A stretch of 20,619 nucleotides of DNA from a virus. The stretch's first letter is position 1. Each line of letters starts with the position of its first letter. Below, one piece after another: positions 814 to 20,619 of the stretch. Where the stretch lies: IMG/VR virus record IMGVR_UViG_3300009481_000141, positions 1 to 20,619 of that record. One strand, given 5' to 3'. A program made the position numbers and the translations under genes. A model generated the notes under the pieces. It had not been told where the DNA came from, did no database searches, and saw nothing but the letters and a program-made list of their open reading frames with translations.

Positions 814-843
814 TGTCCAATTTGTCCAGTTCTCCATGTCCAG
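814..843 (+). repeat. Left cluster of TGTCCA repeats (candidate integrase arm sites)
   Basis: Three direct copies of TGTCCA(A/G) start at 814, 823 and 837, just left of the tRNA fragment at 892-939. The same motif recurs to the right of the fragment. Short direct repeats on both sides of an attachment core are the usual form of arm-type sites bound by the N-terminal domain of tyrosine integrases. That role is inferred from position and copy number. Confidence 0.6.
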
Positions 844-891
844 TGACAAAATGCGACTCAGTCATACCAAGGGATTTGGGGCATGCTCGAA

Positions 892-939
892 GGGCTCATA
901 ACCCGAAGGTCGCAAGTTCAAATCTTGCCCCCGCCACCA
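892..939 (+). other. tRNA-fMet(CAT) 3' half: attachment core (attP)
   Basis: The 48 nt match the 3' half of a cyanobacterial initiator tRNA. The anticodon stem has three G-C pairs (GGG/CCC) around a loop with anticodon CAT. A T-arm with a 5-bp stem (GCAAG/CTTGC) and TTCAAAT loop follows, then the acceptor 3' strand ending in encoded CCA. The bases upstream do not form a D-arm or a matching acceptor 5' strand, so this is a fragment and not a functional tRNA gene. Tyrosine integrases of phages and of the Prochlorococcus tycheposons target tRNA genes, and the element carries the part that rebuilds the gene after insertion. The host target is inferred to be the tRNA-fMet gene. Confidence 0.8.
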
Positions 940-946
940 AATACAT

Positions 947-973
947 TAAGCCCGGTTGATACTGGGCTTTTTT
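947..973 (+). terminator. Rho-independent terminator after the tRNA fragment
   Basis: AAGCCC and GGGCTT form a 6-bp stem around a 10-nt loop, followed by a run of six T. It sits 8 nt after the CCA end. It would terminate the reconstituted host tRNA transcript and shield the integrase region from readthrough. It may have come from the host together with the tRNA 3' end. Confidence 0.75.
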
Positions 974-1049
974 AGTGCTATAAAGGGTTCTCAGAGACTA
1001 GAGAGCCATGGAAAATGCTTTGTCAGAGGTTGAAACAAGTGTTTTTAAG

Positions 1050-1180
1050 TGGACAAAAAATGTCCAGTTTTCATGTCCAGTTGGGTCAAATGTCCAGTTT
1101 TTGAATCTGGAAATGTCCAGTTTTTCAGGTCGGAATTTTGTCCAATGACTGTTTCAATCGATAATTACCTATCTGTCCAA
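1050..1180 (+). repeat. Right cluster of TGTCCA repeats upstream of int
   Basis: Direct TGTCCA(A/G) copies start at 1061, 1074, 1091, 1114, 1139 and 1174, with one inverted copy (TGGACA) at 1050. Together with the left cluster there are about ten copies in under 400 bp. The array runs across the int start codon at 1145, so a protein bound here could control both recombination and int transcription. This fits arm-type sites and autoregulation, which I infer from position. Confidence 0.6.
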
Positions 1181-8432: not shown

Positions 8433-8578
8433 TGAATTGCTGGCACTGTAATACTGAATTAATTTGGGGTAGTGACTCAGATCTCCCAATTCCTTCTGAA
8501 GAATTCGATTTCATAACCAATTTAAGCTGTCCTAAATGTGAATCAGAAGTAGAGGTTTATCACAGAAAAACAAATTGA
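8432..8578 (+). CDS. Small zinc-ribbon protein
   Basis: A 48-aa protein with two CxxC knuckles: Cys3-x-x-Cys6 (NCWHCNTELIWG) and Cys32-x-x-Cys35 (LSCPKCESEVEVY). This is a classical rubredoxin-like zinc ribbon. The start ATG 8432 overlaps the preceding stop (TAATG), and the end overlaps the next TTG start (TTGA). A homologue is encoded at 17708-17863, sharing the C-x-x-C, LIW and EVY positions. Likely a small nucleic-acid- or protein-binding module, possibly a transcription modulator; target unknown. Confidence 0.65.
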   Translation: MNCWHCNTELIWGSDSDLPIPSEEFDFITNLSCPKCESEVEVYHRKTN

Positions 8579-9150
8579 TAGATGTTCCTTTTATTCATGA
8601 TTTTTATTTAGAAAGTTTTCCTTCTAATAAAGATAAACTTATAGATTTTATTGAAAACGGAGAAGAAGATAACACTCAGGATCTCAGTTGGACTGATCTA
8701 TGTTCTCTTGAAGTACAAGGGATTACAGGTGACAATCCCTTTAATTATCTAGCTCCAGTATTGAAAGAGTTTATTGGTGATTTAGGTCTAGATATTTCAA
8801 AAATAAATCTTCGCCTGATGGGCATATGGCGTAACACATATCGAAGAGGTGATTTTCAAGAAGTACATGATCATAATTATGATGATATCTCTGGAGTCAT
8901 TTTTCTGACTGATGAACAAGAAGATGATGGTAAATTTTATTTTTTAAACAAAAGTGGAAACGAGATTCCTTTTTCTTGGGACAAACTAAGAAAAGATAAT
9001 GAGAGGAAGATTCACGCACGTAGGCATTACATAAAAGCCGAGAGAGGCAAAGTAATTCTATTTCCTTCATACCTCCAACATGGAGTCACTGTTCACAAAT
9101 CAGATAATCCAAGAAGAACAGCAGCGTTTAATCTTCGGTTTTTAGAGTGA
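8575..9150 (+). CDS. 2OG-Fe(II) oxygenase superfamily protein
   Basis: Probable 2-oxoglutarate/Fe(II)-dependent oxygenase (191 aa) of the type common in marine cyanophages. The double-stranded beta-helix signature is visible. VHDHNYDDISGVIFL (H98/D99/H100) supplies proximal metal ligands, GKVILFPSYLQHGV supplies distal H169, and RRTAAFNLRF supplies an Arg (180 or 181) for 2OG binding. The start TTG 8575 overlaps the zinc-ribbon stop as TTGA, implying coupling. The substrate is unknown; families of this form act on proteins, nucleotides or small molecules. Its 3' end overlaps by 23 nt the end of a second, convergent oxygenase gene (9128-9736). Confidence 0.75.
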   Translation: MIDVPFIHDFYLESFPSNKDKLIDFIENGEEDNTQDLSWTDLCSLEVQGITGDNPFNYLAPVLKEFIGDLGLDISKINLRLMGIWRNTYRRGDFQEVHDHNYDDISGVIFLTDEQEDDGKFYFLNKSGNEIPFSWDKLRKDNERKIHARRHYIKAERGKVILFPSYLQHGVTVHKSDNPRRTAAFNLRFLE

Positions 9151-9736
9151 CCAATTTATCTATTACTCCTTCGGGGATAGTTTTGTATGCTTTTTCACTA
9201 AACATATCAAAGGCAATAGTTATTCTTTCGCTATCTCCGTTGTATTGATCAGTCCAGTGAGTTGTACCACTATTGAAGAAATGAAAATTGCCGGGAATAT
9301 TTAATAGTTTTTCATCCTTGATAAATGTTCTGTAGTAAGTAGAAGTTGAACCATCGGCTTTAACAGTCAAGTGTCCACACAGAGAATCAAGAGGATCAAC
9401 AATACCTCTGAAGTGTGCGTGGGGTTTTATTTGCTCACCCTTTCTTAGAACATTGGCCCAGCATTTGACATGTAATTGTTTAATCTTGGTCTCAGTGTAA
9501 TTTTGATAGCCTTTTAGAATCCATTTACGTAAGGGCTCAGCCTCTTGCCAATTCAATACGTTGTACCAGAAATATCTAGAAGTTAGAGAGTTAGGACTTA
9601 AGCCAGTTCCACTGTTTCCATCATTGCCATCGTATGAAGTATTTGGAAATTTCTCGATAATCACTGGCTCTTCTTTAAGTATTTTCTGCTCCAGCGGATC
9701 GCAGTTAATGTCACTTTCGATAACAATTGTTTTCAT
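9128..9736 (-). CDS. Second 2OG-Fe(II) oxygenase-like protein
   Basis: A 202-aa protein with ATG 9736 overlapping the halogenase stop (TAATG); the longer TTG-type start at 9760 is unnecessary. Residues 91-123 contain KPHAHFRG (H106/H108) followed by a CGHLTV strand. Residues 149-177 contain GNFHFFNSGTTHWT (H160) and GDSERITIAFD (R171). These match the two-His metal site and 2OG-binding Arg of the cupin-like oxygenase fold. Sequence similarity to the 8575-9150 protein is slight, so they are not recent duplicates. It is the last gene of the DUF5664-halogenase-oxygenase unit, so it probably acts on the same substrate pathway as the halogenase. Confidence 0.7.
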   Translation of the reverse strand: MKTIVIESDINCDPLEQKILKEEPVIIEKFPNTSYDGNDGNSGTGLSPNSLTSRYFWYNVLNWQEAEPLRKWILKGYQNYTETKIKQLHVKCWANVLRKGEQIKPHAHFRGIVDPLDSLCGHLTVKADGSTSTYYRTFIKDEKLLNIPGNFHFFNSGTTHWTDQYNGDSERITIAFDMFSEKAYKTIPEGVIDKLVTLKTED

Positions 9737-10872
9737 TATTTCTTCACTCCATCCATCCAATATTTGATACTCGTTGGAGCCCAGCAGCCGTACTCAGGTA
9801 ATCGACCTTGCTGTTCAAAGGTCTTAACAACTGATATAGGTAACGGCTCTAGGGTTTGAGTTAACTCATTAAATTTAGGGTCTATCTTTGTCCGTAGATT
9901 TCTTGCATGTTTCCAGAATTTAGTTTCAAATTTAGAACCGTTCTGATAATGCCAAAGAATAAATCTTTCTATCTCATGGATCTTATTATGAATCCACTTA
10001 GTTAAAGGTTCTGTTTTATTTTGTGGTCTAATTATTTGATCAAAGCATTGAACCACCCATTCCGTATGTATCCAACAAGCTGTTGCCTCTAAAGGTTCCA
10101 AGAAGTAAAGACGATTTCCATTAAGAAATACTCGCTTATCAATAACAGGATTCTTTGCTATGTAGCTTTTAAATTCAAGATGACCTGTTATGTACGCATC
10201 AAATTGATCCTGTAAATTATGGATTGCTTCTTTTTTAGTAGTTATATCTTTGTTGTATAAATAACCTAAAGCTCCTTGACTGCTTGGCAGGTCTGGTTTT
10301 GCAGGTAACACAAAACTCCAACCGTCAGAAGTTGCAACAGCTCTGGTATAAGAGAGAATTGATGTGTCCCATTTTGGCTTAGCTAGTAGACAAGAGTTAA
10401 CTGGCGTAATCAGAGGTGAGTAATCGTCATCATCTTTAGGTCTTCCTCTGCAATCAAATATATAGTCAGCATCAACGTCAGAATAGTTATCTACGTTTTG
10501 GTGAATAATATTGAATTGTCCAGACTTAACTACTATTTCCTGTAATTTTTTTGGGAAAAAATGCATCCCAACATTCTTAGGGGGAAACGGATGAAAGATT
10601 TCTTTCTTATGCCCCCAACCTTCGTAAAGGATTCCTGTCTTTATGGTTGCGTCAATTTGATTCTTATACCAATTGAATTCTTCGTTTAAAACATTCCAAA
10701 GCAAATGTGGTTGGTGAGGAAAGGTAGCTTGACCAACTTTTTCAGCAGGAGTATTGGGGTCATAGATAATCGAAATCTCTATTTCAAGACCTGTGTCTTT
10801 AGCAAGATCACCTAGTTGAAGTGCTGTAAAACAACCTGCATTCCCAGCACCAATTACTGCTACTTTGATCAT
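9736..10872 (-). CDS. Flavin-dependent (tryptophan-type) halogenase
   Basis: A 378-aa FAD enzyme predicted to use FADH2, O2 and halide to make a hypohalous intermediate. It has an N-terminal Rossmann motif, VIGAGNAG (7-14). The family's catalytic Lys is probably Lys78 in TIKTGILYEGWG. The family block EPLEATACW (259-267) covers the position of the active-site Glu. The WxWxIP motif typical of tryptophan halogenases is altered to GWSFVLP (184-190). It is shorter than PrnA-type enzymes (over 500 aa). Homologues of this annotation are widespread in marine cyanophages without a known substrate. It is coupled by TAATG overlaps to both neighbours. Confidence 0.85.
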   Translation of the reverse strand: MIKVAVIGAGNAGCFTALQLGDLAKDTGLEIEISIIYDPNTPAEKVGQATFPHQPHLLWNVLNEEFNWYKNQIDATIKTGILYEGWGHKKEIFHPFPPKNVGMHFFPKKLQEIVVKSGQFNIIHQNVDNYSDVDADYIFDCRGRPKDDDDYSPLITPVNSCLLAKPKWDTSILSYTRAVATSDGWSFVLPAKPDLPSSQGALGYLYNKDITTKKEAIHNLQDQFDAYITGHLEFKSYIAKNPVIDKRVFLNGNRLYFLEPLEATACWIHTEWVVQCFDQIIRPQNKTEPLTKWIHNKIHEIERFILWHYQNGSKFETKFWKHARNLRTKIDPKFNELTQTLEPLPISVVKTFEQQGRLPEYGCWAPTSIKYWMDGVKK

Positions 10873-11327
10873 TAATCTAAACCTAGATTTATTGGATCAA
10901 CTTCTGATGATTTCCAATCGGTCGAAAACTTCAATGATTGGGAATCATCTAACGGATGACATTTCAAGACTTCCTTATAAAGTTCGTGGTCAAACTCAAA
11001 TGAATCAGATTTAAGACCATCGCCTTTAGTGAAAGCTTGTCCGTCTGGACCAGTAAAACGATCATCAGTTCCCCAGCTATTGCGCTGGTATTCCATTAAA
11101 AAGAGCAGGCAGCATCCAGCATGTGCGAGATGCGAGTATCCAGTTTCTTTGTCGTTATCTTCTCCTCTCCACCAAGCGAATATATGTCTGCATAAGGCTG
11201 CGAAATATCTTCCCCACTCGGTTCCTCTACACCAATTATTCGCTGAATACTTTGCGCTCCCATAGCTGAGAACGTCAGCGATGTCTGTAATAGAAGCCCA
11301 AGGCACGAGATCAAAACGAGTCTTCAC
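10872..11327 (-). CDS. dATP/dGTP diphosphohydrolase-domain protein (DUF5664)
   Basis: A 151-aa protein. Residues 3-80 fit the DUF5664 helical domain: RFDLVPW, LSYGSAKYSANNW, RYFAALCRHIFAWWRGEDNDKETG-type segment and HLAHAGCCLLFLMEY. The family belongs to the MazG-like all-alpha NTP pyrophosphatases; some members (MazZ) hydrolyse dGTP or dATP in phages with altered bases. The tail beyond 85 is polar and unassigned. The start is GTG 11327, and the stop overlaps the halogenase ATG (TAATG). It heads the operon 11327-9128, so the halogenase and oxygenase may act on nucleotides. That pathway link is an inference. Confidence 0.75.
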   Translation of the reverse strand: MKTRFDLVPWASITDIADVLSYGSAKYSANNWCRGTEWGRYFAALCRHIFAWWRGEDNDKETGYSHLAHAGCCLLFLMEYQRNSWGTDDRFTGPDGQAFTKGDGLKSDSFEFDHELYKEVLKCHPLDDSQSLKFSTDWKSSEVDPINLGLD

Positions 11328-17899: not shown

Positions 17900-18034
17900 A
17901 TGATCATCATCTATCAAGAGCACATCGACGTGCTGGAGAAAGAAGTTGACGTGCTTGCTAATGAAGTACGTTTCTTAAAAGAGCAACTGGAATATAAATC
18001 TTTAGGACCGCCATTAGAACCAGACAAACATTAA
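17900..18034 (+). CDS. 44-aa coiled-coil protein
   Basis: ATG 17900 to TAA 18032-18034. The peptide has Val/Leu heptads with Glu/Lys flanks (DVLEKEVDVLANEVRFLKEQL), a near-certain coiled coil, then a Pro-rich end. It overlaps the convergent 104-aa gene by 4 nt. No strong ribosome site is visible. Small coiled-coil genes of this kind can be dimerising partners; function unknown. Confidence 0.5.
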   Translation: MIIIYQEHIDVLEKEVDVLANEVRFLKEQLEYKSLGPPLEPDKH

Positions 18035-18345
18035 ACAGCTCCTGCCTCTACATCAGCACCAGAACCAACTTCATCTGTGCCTAATTGGTTAGGTCTCCAT
18101 CCGCTTTGCCAAATTTCTCTTGATTTAATTTGTAGATCGTTAAATGTTTTGCCGTGATCATCGAGATACTTAACGATGATGTCTTTTATATTGTCTCCAC
18201 CGGGATATCCAGAGTAACGAGTATAGAGTCGAGCAAGGTCAACGATGTCTTGCTTGCTTAATTCTTTCAAACTCTTGCCAGTAATAGCATCAACAGTCGG
18301 CCTGTCTAAGCTATACATCGGATGAGTAGAGAAAATAGCAATCAT
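18031..18345 (-). CDS. Hypothetical 104-aa protein
   Basis: ATG 18345 begins a soluble protein. The N-terminal half has THPMYSLDRPTVDAITGKSL, then SKQDIVDLARLYTRYSGYPG, which looks like a well-packed helical domain. The C-terminal segment reads WQSGWRPNQLGTDEVGSGAD. From memory this resembles small cyanophage hypothetical proteins, but I cannot confirm it. It lies just downstream of the iteron region, whose promoter would probably serve it. Confidence 0.6.
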   Translation of the reverse strand: MIAIFSTHPMYSLDRPTVDAITGKSLKELSKQDIVDLARLYTRYSGYPGGDNIKDIIVKYLDDHGKTFNDLQIKSREIWQSGWRPNQLGTDEVGSGADVEAGAV

Positions 18346-18377
18346 TTTTGTATGTTCTTTCTTTCATATTGAATCAC

Positions 18378-18641
18378 AAAGGGTACAGGGTGTACAGGGA
18401 TCCACGCTTTCTATAACCTTTCCTAGAAATTGCTCTTCCTTTTAAATGTCTTTCTTATTCTTTTTTTCGTATAAATCGATCATAGCGTTTCTAAGAGATT
18501 GAAGATTTTTAAAATGCTGCTGAATTACTAGGAAAGGTTATACAGAGAGTGGAACCGTGTACCCTTTCTTGAGACTCATTTATTACTAGTTAATTTCAAG
18601 CAAGATGCCGTACCCTTTATTGGTGTACAAGGGGTACAGGG
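18378..18641. repeat. Iteron and inverted-repeat region, candidate replication origin
   Basis: In the 366-bp gap between two minus-strand genes, GGGTACA-type repeats occur at 18381 and 18632 (forward) and at 18558 and 18610 (reverse; the last is a partial copy lacking the first T). Related TGTACAGGG and TGTACAAGG copies lie at 18391 and 18624. A 15-bp arm TATAACCTTTCCTAG (18412-18426) has an exact inverted copy at 18528-18542, extending to imperfect arms of about 45 bp. The segment between is AT-rich. Repeat clusters flanking an AT-rich unwinding region beside a VapE-type primase-helicase gene are the form of satellite and phage origins. Promoter or repressor sites for the 104-aa gene could also be here. 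Confidence 0.5.
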
Positions 18642-18646
18642 TCAAT

Positions 18647-18681
18647 AAAAAAGACTGCCACTACTAGAAAGAGTGACAGCC
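18647..18681 (-). terminator. Rho-independent terminator after primase-helicase
   Basis: On the minus strand GGCTGTCAC (18681-18673) pairs with GTGGCAGTC (18661-18653) as a 9-bp stem with two G-U pairs, around an 11-nt loop. Six T follow at once (18652-18647). It lies 31 nt after the stop of the primase-helicase gene and would separate that transcript from genes downstream. Confidence 0.75.
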
Positions 18682-18711: not shown

Positions 18712-20619
18712 TTAAGTCTTAATCCATACTCTCAATTGCTCACTATTCTTTTTAATTTTCTTCTTTTCGCAACCCTCTCTAGTCATGCAGTCAGTAATAT
18801 TCCTGCTCATTTGACTTTGTTGAGTAATAGGAATATCAAGCTCCCTAAACATTTCAGCCAGAGTTATGTAAGGTCTTCCTTGGTGGTAGCCAGAAGTATG
18901 CCTCTTTAAAACTTCCCTGACTGCAACTTCATAAGGTTGGTCTCTAGTAAAGGAGTCAGCGTAGTCAGAGATGTAACTAATTTCTGCACTAGTAAAAACA
19001 TGCTGGGGATCATCTAGATAACGCCTATAAGCAGATACCCAAATCGAATCTCTATCCTTCTTAAGTCGATCTAAATCAATAATCTTGATCGCTGGGTTTT
19101 CTTTAGATGGAACCTTGCCAACAACTTTGATCGGTAGGAATCGTCTGTTACCAGATGGATCACTTAAGAAATCAGTAGAGTTAGTTGCTCCAGCGAGAAC
19201 AAATGCTCTGGGATAAGATTTCTCGTTTTCATATTTCTTTGCCGACCTATCTGTACCAACAGAAACAAGGTTCTTTAATTCTTCCGAGTACTTGCGTTTG
19301 GTGTATCTCTCGAACTCATCCATCACAACAATGAAACCTGCGTGAAGTGCATGAGGTTTATCTTTTAAATAATCAATACCTTGCTGCATGGTTGTAACCC
19401 ATGGATAAGTCCCGTCAACTGGATGAGGCGGAGTGAGGTAACTAAAGAATGTTGACTTACCACAGTTCTGACTACCAATAAGAACAGGCATCCAATCATG
19501 AACACAGCCCGGATCAATGACTCTGGCTACAGCTCCTATTAAAAATCGTTTGAGAATTACATCAGCCAAAGTTGATCCATCTCTCATAATGGGGTTCTCT
19601 AGAGGATCACTAGGTACACCAAGAAGTTCAGTAGCAAGTCTGTCGAAGTATGGACACTGCTCAGTCCTTGCGGCACATTCTTCTAAGTATTTTTTGACTG
19701 GGTGATATTTATTTAGATATCCCACCTCAGAGGCGACATCAAATACCAAGGTCTTAGGGAAAACAGTGTTAGCTCGATGACTAACTTCTAGGTACATCAA
19801 AGTTGGATCATGGATTGGTCTTGCCTGATTCTTAGGACCAAATTCCAACTGTTGATTCATCACGTTTAATCTCAGGCCGGGATAAATATCTGGCATTAAT
19901 TGCCTGACTCGATCAACTTGATTTTCTCCGGGTCTTCCTCTAGCTGGAGCATCACCTCCTTCTGGTTCAACATCATCGTCGTCAGACTCATCAGCCACTT
20001 CTGGTTCAATCGTTGTAGATCTTTGCCATGGCATCTCACCGAATAAACCTTGGGTGGGTTCAGTTGTTGTTGCAACTAAATCATCACCAAAGCCATCATC
20101 CTCATCGTCACCCAAGAAAGCACTATGTTCATAGCCAGCGAACGTTGTGCCGTAATGACCAAGTAAATGATTGCTATCGGTCTTTAATTCAGAGGGAATA
20201 TTGCTACGCCAATCTGGGTCGCAGTTTGTGGCTTCCCAAAAAATTGTGGCTAGTGAATCTCCTCGGAAAGTTCTGAAGTATCTTTCTGTTGATTGTTTGG
20301 ATTTAGATCCACTCCCATGGTGACAACGACTAGCCCAGTCAGACCAGTAAGGAAAAACATCATCTCCACCTGCACTTGCAGAGACAGTAACTTTAATGAA
20401 TCGATCTCTCTCCCCGTCAACTGTTGGAGTAATGATATTTTCTAAACAATAGATAGCGAGCTGGATTGAATGATCATCAATATCTTCTTTCCTTCGATCA
20501 TATGTATTGCGCCTGACGACCAATGCTTTCTTAGCTTCTTCAATAATGTCGTAACCGAGAACAGCATCATCATTAATTAAAGGTTGCTGAGCATTGTCAT
20601 TTCCATAGAAGGTTCGACA
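18712..20619 (-). CDS. VapE/D5-like primase-helicase, 5' end outside window
   Basis: The frame is open to the right edge, so the N-terminus (probably the primase domain) lies outside. Numbering from TTG 20523, residues 45-110 resemble a PriCT-2 primase domain (VFPYWSDWAS, then RGDSLATIFWEA). A Glu/Asp-rich linker follows (136-200). The VapE/SF3-type ATPase begins near 300: Walker A GSQNCGKST (350-358), Walker B VVMDEFE (399-405), and AGATNST...SGNRRFLPI (444-465) as sensor/arginine-finger region. It would unwind and prime DNA during element replication. VapE helicases typify phage satellites and some phages. A terminator follows, then a candidate origin. Confidence 0.8.
   Translation of the reverse strand, partial: CRTFYGNDNAQQPLINDDAVLGYDIIEEAKKALVVRRNTYDRRKEDIDDHSIQLAIYCLENIITPTVDGERDRFIKVTVSASAGGDDVFPYWSDWASRCHHGSGSKSKQSTERYFRTFRGDSLATIFWEATNCDPDWRSNIPSELKTDSNHLLGHYGTTFAGYEHSAFLGDDEDDGFGDDLVATTTEPTQGLFGEMPWQRSTTIEPEVADESDDDDVEPEGGDAPARGRPGENQVDRVRQLMPDIYPGLRLNVMNQQLEFGPKNQARPIHDPTLMYLEVSHRANTVFPKTLVFDVASEVGYLNKYHPVKKYLEECAARTEQCPYFDRLATELLGVPSDPLENPIMRDGSTLADVILKRFLIGAVARVIDPGCVHDWMPVLIGSQNCGKSTFFSYLTPPHPVDGTYPWVTTMQQGIDYLKDKPHALHAGFIVVMDEFERYTKRKYSEELKNLVSVGTDRSAKKYENEKSYPRAFVLAGATNSTDFLSDPSGNRRFLPIKVVGKVPSKENPAIKIIDLDRLKKDRDSIWVSAYRRYLDDPQHVFTSAEISYISDYADSFTRDQPYEVAVREVLKRHTSGYHQGRPYITLAEMFRELDIPITQQSQMSRNITDCMTREGCEKKKIKKNSEQLRVWIKT

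Follow-up and report, generated by a model that had tools for sequence, protein, structure and literature searches.

We analyzed a complete IMG/VR record of 20,619 bp (hereafter the window), in which a vapE gene on the minus strand is followed at its 3' end by a block of repeats, hereafter the cassette. Read in the direction of vapE, the gene is followed by a terminator-like hairpin with a T-run, an outer iteron pair, an inverted iteron, the TGAGTCTC box, inner inverted iterons, one arm of a long inverted repeat, an AT-rich core with a TATGAT element, the second arm and a second iteron set at 9-bp spacing (Table 1). Genes for DUF3288, dCMP deaminase, HNH and ThyX proteins lie downstream, and about 70 bp separate the vapE stop from the first iteron. 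The hairpin was missed by a simple scan because its loop exceeds the limit of 8 used by the scan, and a T-run occurs at a similar place in most relatives. As read from the sequence, it would stop vapE transcription ahead of the putative origin.

Table 1. Positions of the features in and around the cassette, numbered along the window
Feature	Position	Strand	Evidence
VapE initiator (predicted middle region, helicase and C-terminal winged helix)	18712..20619	-	Pfam VapE-like 4.1e-40; phrog_1313
Terminator-like hairpin, GGCTGTCACT-loop-AGTGGCAGTC then TTTTTT	18647..18681	-	Read from sequence
Outer iteron pair, CCTGTACCC CTTGTACAC in vapE orientation	18622..18641	-	Repeat family D1
Single iteron CCGTACCC, opposite orientation in vapE sense	18608..18618	+	Motif count
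TGAGACTCAT box (ATGAGTCTCA in vapE sense)	18570..18579	.	Fixed point in relatives
Inner iterons beside arm, GTGTACCC and degenerate GTGGAACC; inverted relative to the 18380-18406 set	18549..18567	+	Inverted repeat I4
Inverted-repeat arm 1 (exact 15-bp part 18528-18542)	18502..18562	.	Repeat search; arm co-variation
AT-rich core, 73% AT; candidate melting region	18427..18527	.	Composition
-10-like TATGAT within core, reads towards DUF3288	18479..18484	-	Alignment of relatives
Inverted-repeat arm 2 (exact 15-bp part 18412-18426)	18392..18452	.	Repeat search; arm co-variation
Iteron set 2, CTGTACCC, CTGTACACC and degenerate GTGGATCC; spacing ~9 bp	18380..18406	-	D1, spacing 9
DUF3288 protein, first gene past the putative origin and outside it	18031..18345	-	Pfam 1.2e-11

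Repeats were counted as GGGTAC, GTACCC or TGTACA on either strand. The original prediction of at least six TGTACA/GGGTACA copies amounts to six sites only when both motifs and both strands are pooled: within 18378-18641, strict TGTACA occurs twice (18391 and 18624), GGGTACA lies at 18381 and 18632 on the plus strand and at 18558 on the minus strand, and there is an additional GTACCC at 18610. The six GTAC-centred sites have their GTAC at 18383, 18392, 18559, 18610, 18625 and 18634. Dinucleotide shuffles of 18360-18660 contained 0.13 such sites on average, and none of 10,000 reached six. The other predicted elements were found as described: a VapE helicase gene adjoins the repeats, the 15-bp exact inverted repeat (TATAACCTTTCCTAG and CTAGGAAAGGTTATA) extends imperfectly into arms of 61 nt with 77% complementarity (self-complementarity score of 72 vs 22 +/- 4 for shuffles), and the stretch flanked by the repeats is richer in AT than the window, which stands at 60%.

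Motif counts revealed no cluster comparable to the cassette elsewhere in the window or in two relatives (G003 and G004); the motifs counted in these sequences and in locus L005 were picked from the cassette region, and it is the absence of comparable clusters elsewhere that is informative. An unsupervised scan for clustered 8-mers ranked the cassette region second in the window, behind the att region, and is not decisive because coding repeats outrank the cassette in relatives. A search against Rfam returned no RNA family match within the window.

Viral family and VapE protein

The search for VapE relatives yielded 38 loci, several of them on records of ~85 kb, and three ~85-kb relatives have direct terminal repeats (114 bp in G013, 123 bp in G016 and 391 bp in G019). 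Synteny with the ~85-kb relatives covers most genes of the window. As the window is a fragment, we judged it through these relatives, of which G021 is the sole annotated member; G021 encodes a terminase large subunit and structural and tail proteins, and the nearest cultured relative of its virion and terminase proteins is Synechococcus phage S-EIV1 (TerL 50%), whose own annotation lists a family A polymerase and a different primase. Because syntenic ~85-kb relatives have terminase and virion genes, we assign the window, on gene content, to a family of ~85-kb tailed cyanophages with their own terminase and virion genes, of which it is a fragment. Satellites (PICI, SaPI) are defined by having no terminase or virion genes of their own, and judged on G021 this does not apply here; a satellite or tycheposon reading was dropped for the same reason. 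The likeness to satellite origins with two iteron sets that had been proposed thus extends to the two sets around an AT core and not to the context, which is an ~85-kb phage.

The phage was probably temperate, as suggested by an integrase gene next to a tRNA 3' half at ~890-940, which has CAT at the anticodon position (window 823-1120). Six TGTCCAG repeats flank the tRNA half (823, 837, 1061, 1074, 1091 and 1114), and 823-1120 is likely an attP with integrase arm sites. A VapE scan of genome contigs gave zero relatives, and a host search by exact match to the tRNA 3' half gave none.

Several other genes of the window were recorded. A gene for a dATP/dGTP diphosphohydrolase N-terminal domain (10872-11327) is conserved in the family (8/8 records tested), without PurZ; in the window and in G003, a six-frame match to dATP/dGTP diphosphohydrolase crosses stop codons past the ORF. 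The idea of a Z-DNA phage similar to S-2L was dropped, since PurZ was absent from these records although the dGTP-diphosphohydrolase-like gene was present in all of them. A tryptophan-halogenase-like gene (9736-10872) adjoins two 2OG-Fe(II) oxygenase-like genes (9128-9760 and 8575-9150), which together were not found in the close relatives compared and appear to be cargo.

The vapE gene of the window is truncated by the contig end, which cuts off the N-terminal prim-pol half. Full-length relatives are ~780 aa long with an AEP fold at the N-terminus, and we judged the domain make-up on one of these (L033). VapE is predicted to be a three-domain initiator, with an AEP prim-pol, a VapE/SF3-like helicase and a C-terminal winged helix. 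The N-terminal AEP-like fold is confident in the structure model, with S-2L PrimPol (6zp9, Z 10.9) and RepB' (3h20, Z 10.4) as best matches. The helicase and C-terminal part (residues 447-778) matches dsDNA-bound SaPI5 PriRep1 (7pds; Z 9.8 for the model, E 4e-16 for the sequence). Confidence in the model is modest over the helicase, which was assigned from Pfam and sequence. Residues 702-778 adopt a winged-helix fold in the model, seen also in SaPIBov1 Rep. A rolling-circle double-strand origin would call for a nicking endonuclease (HUH) gene alongside its hairpin; the Pfam hits of VapE and of the neighbouring genes scanned, a subset of the family ORFs, included no HUH domain.

Conservation and variation of the cassette

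The absence of the repeats from relatives with the same helicase had been set as the outcome that would speak against an origin. The comparison favours the origin reading: the order iterons, arm, AT core, arm and inverted iterons recurs 3' of VapE in at least 20 aligned loci, and a GAGTCTC box lies 111-150 nt past the vapE stop in the 22 aligned loci (five distant loci, L044, L046, L051, L054 and L067, were left out of the confident alignment). Position and architecture are conserved, with most relatives sharing the placement of the first iteron, and the sequences of iterons and arms vary by lineage, with for example GTACCC, GGTACC, GTCACC or TTGACAGGG. In the relatives, the regular 9-bp register of the iterons was read partly by eye.

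The two sides of the cassette change in concert. Complementarity between the two arms is higher within a genome than after arms are swapped between genomes (13.25 vs 8.66 +/- 0.49; 0/20,000 permutations). The inverted match between outer repeats of the two sides is likewise better for repeats of one genome than for repeats of different genomes, both for near-left against right (7.92 vs 5.83 +/- 0.34; 0/10,000) and in a second comparison (7.88 vs 6.03 +/- 0.29; 0/10,000), and within-genome co-variation holds for far-left and right repeats (0/10,000). One sub-clade (L035-L037, L048 and L052) has poor arms and keeps its iterons. We also compared iteron distance with protein distance, and a specific co-variation with the VapE C-terminus was rejected as inseparable from general relatedness, the correlation being 0.61 for the C-terminus and 0.59 for the helicase.

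In three loci (L042, L043 and L061), ~0.75-1.5 kb lie between vapE and the cassette, and the iterons stay grouped farther downstream; two arms were recognised in L043, L061 and the reference L056, and a single one in L042. The extra stretch may mark a site of cargo insertion; in L042 and L061 it begins with an open frame that immediately follows the vapE stop.

The layout was also found in the cultured cyanophage S-LBS1, whose prim-pol is 28% identical: its prim-pol gene is followed immediately by three iterons and, beyond a 65-nt core, by four inverted ones, with the iterons spaced at 9 bp and themselves forming 29-nt arms of 83% complementarity. Cyanophage S-2L had no significant inverted repeat after its prim-pol.

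Further motifs were noted in some relatives. The core of L007, L041, L045, L047, L055 and L057-L059 contains a short hairpin (e.g. CTTGGTT..AACCAAG) followed by GGGGAGGAA, which resembles a single-strand initiation hairpin and is absent from the window. A motif like CCTGCAATGGATCTC or CCAGTCGATCTCGG recurs near the cassette in L041, L044-L047, L050, L051 and L054. In two distant VapE phages, L170 and L177, the vapE stop is also followed at once by short tandem repeats (TGCAACATCAC and GTGTCTACACC), so iterons in this place may be general.

A putative replication origin and related systems

We consider it very probable that the region is the replication origin of a temperate cyanophage of ~85 kb and that it is recognised by the phage's own VapE prim-pol/helicase. 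In the mechanism that we propose, the C-terminal winged helix of VapE would bind the 8-9-bp iterons, whose two sets are arranged as a dyad, and two helicase rings would load head to head on this dyad. The long inverted repeat and the AT-rich core would melt or extrude into a single-stranded template, on which the prim-pol domain could lay the first primers. The promoter-like element in the core may assist opening of the DNA; we offer transcriptional activation only as a suggestion, because the window has no full sigma-70 match. GC skew was dropped as an origin marker: neither cumulative nor fourfold-site skew changed sign at the cassette, and the fourfold-site skew of genes in vapE sense was weaker downstream of it in 8/8 records (G013, G016, G019, G021, G003, G004, G006 and G007), a drop in the same direction that is displaced, with change points 1-13 kb from the cassette.

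Transcription control is the strongest of the alternatives, and in our view an unlikely one. The repeats would then be operators of a phage repressor or of VapE, and a promoter in the core would drive DUF3288, dCMP deaminase and ThyX; a TANNNT pointing towards DUF3288 is indeed kept in the core of 22/22 aligned loci, and dyad operators are common in phages. A simple scan nevertheless found no sigma-70 promoter in the window, and a 100-bp dyad with co-varying arms is more than an ordinary operator requires. The three loci with displaced cassettes also argue against it, as their iterons stay together away from vapE, with the qualification that the cassette may still precede a downstream gene. 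Operators of a repressor were rejected specifically on L005, where the repressor-vapE intergenic region upstream of vapE has no iterons of the GGTACC type. It is less probable still that the arms are kept alike by template switching or gene conversion and serve no function in initiation. Inverted repeats can homogenise each other and so mimic compensatory change, and switching between the arms could in part explain their co-variation, but it accounts neither for the fixed place after vapE and the fixed order of iterons, arm, core, arm and iterons, nor for the 9-bp iteron spacing and the layout in S-LBS1. A packaging (pac/cos) or site-specific recombination (att) site is the most remote of these readings: terminase or integrase sites can be short repeats around a dyad, but an attP candidate lies elsewhere (integrase gene at 1049-2443, beside the tRNA 3' half and TGTCCAG repeats) and the terminase of G021 is ~48 kb from the cassette.

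If the region is an origin, it matters beyond this virus. VapE-type helicases are common in phages and satellites, but tests of their origins are few, and there is debate over how a pRN1-type stem-loop initiates replication. The cassette offers a compact putative origin in dozens of natural variants, and because iterons and stem vary while the layout stays, the parts recognised by sequence and by structure are directly testable, with S-LBS1 as a cultured version for the laboratory. It also points to the replication start of an uncultured group of ~85-kb cyanophages. A wider proposal, which we regard as doubtful, is that such cassettes form a composite class of origins. One protein with prim-pol, helicase and winged-helix parts would assemble through lineage-specific iterons on a stem-loop conserved in structure, and the core of the stem-loop would carry a promoter; melting, transcription and self-priming would thereby be coupled, and a cassette of ~260 bp would evolve and move as a unit.

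Calling this an uncharacterised origin type, as in the original prediction, goes too far, since iterons of the SaPI/SCCmec kind (PMC7581432) and the stem-loop of pRN1 and BIP-1 (PMC4234260) were already known; new here is the occurrence of iterons and a long stem-loop together, of which we found no description for this virus family. S-LBS1 has a similar layout, in which two inverted sets of 9-bp-spaced iterons flank a ~65-nt core immediately past the prim-pol gene. S-LBS1 differs from the window family in being a 34.6-kb siphovirus with a divergent prim-pol and in that the iterons themselves make up the arms. None of the terms "origin of replication", "repeat" and "iteron" appears in the published description of S-LBS1 (PMC6157547). 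The oriV of RSF1010 likewise combines iterons with short stem-loops, ssiA and ssiB, which its primase RepB' recognises (according to PMC4234260), and RepB' is among the best fold matches of the VapE prim-pol. Where RSF1010 uses three separate proteins and separate hairpins, the window family has one fused protein and one long dyad.

In SCCmec, Cch2 is a SaPI-like helicase that uses its C-terminal domain to bind iterons lying 3' of its own gene, and the putative origin region also has inverted repeats, which are dispensable for Cch2 binding (PMC7581432). The cassette resembles SaPI Rep/PriRep and Cch2 systems in its short iterons directly 3' of the gene for a VapE/D5-type self-loading helicase with a C-terminal dsDNA-binding domain, in its two repeat sets around an AT stretch and in its PriRep-related helicase. 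Unlike SaPI and SCCmec, it belongs to a family of large tailed phages with terminase and virion genes, and unlike in Cch2 its iterons are arranged as a dyad on either side of a long inverted repeat that co-varies. A stem-loop 3' of orf904 is required for replication of pRN1, and the same arrangement was proposed for phage BIP-1 (PMC4234260); BPP-1 has a 48-nt inverted repeat after its primase gene. With these systems the cassette shares an AEP prim-pol, SF3 helicase and winged helix, followed by a terminator and then a long stem-loop whose sequence varies while its structure is kept (PMC4234260), a conservation that is strong over the arms (0/20,000) and weak in one sub-clade. Since iterons flank the stem-loop on both sides, and pRN1 is described as having none, the cassette would work like the pRN1 type without being a member of it. 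Our best reading is a self-initiating phage origin that combines SaPI/SCCmec-type iterons with a pRN1-type stem-loop.
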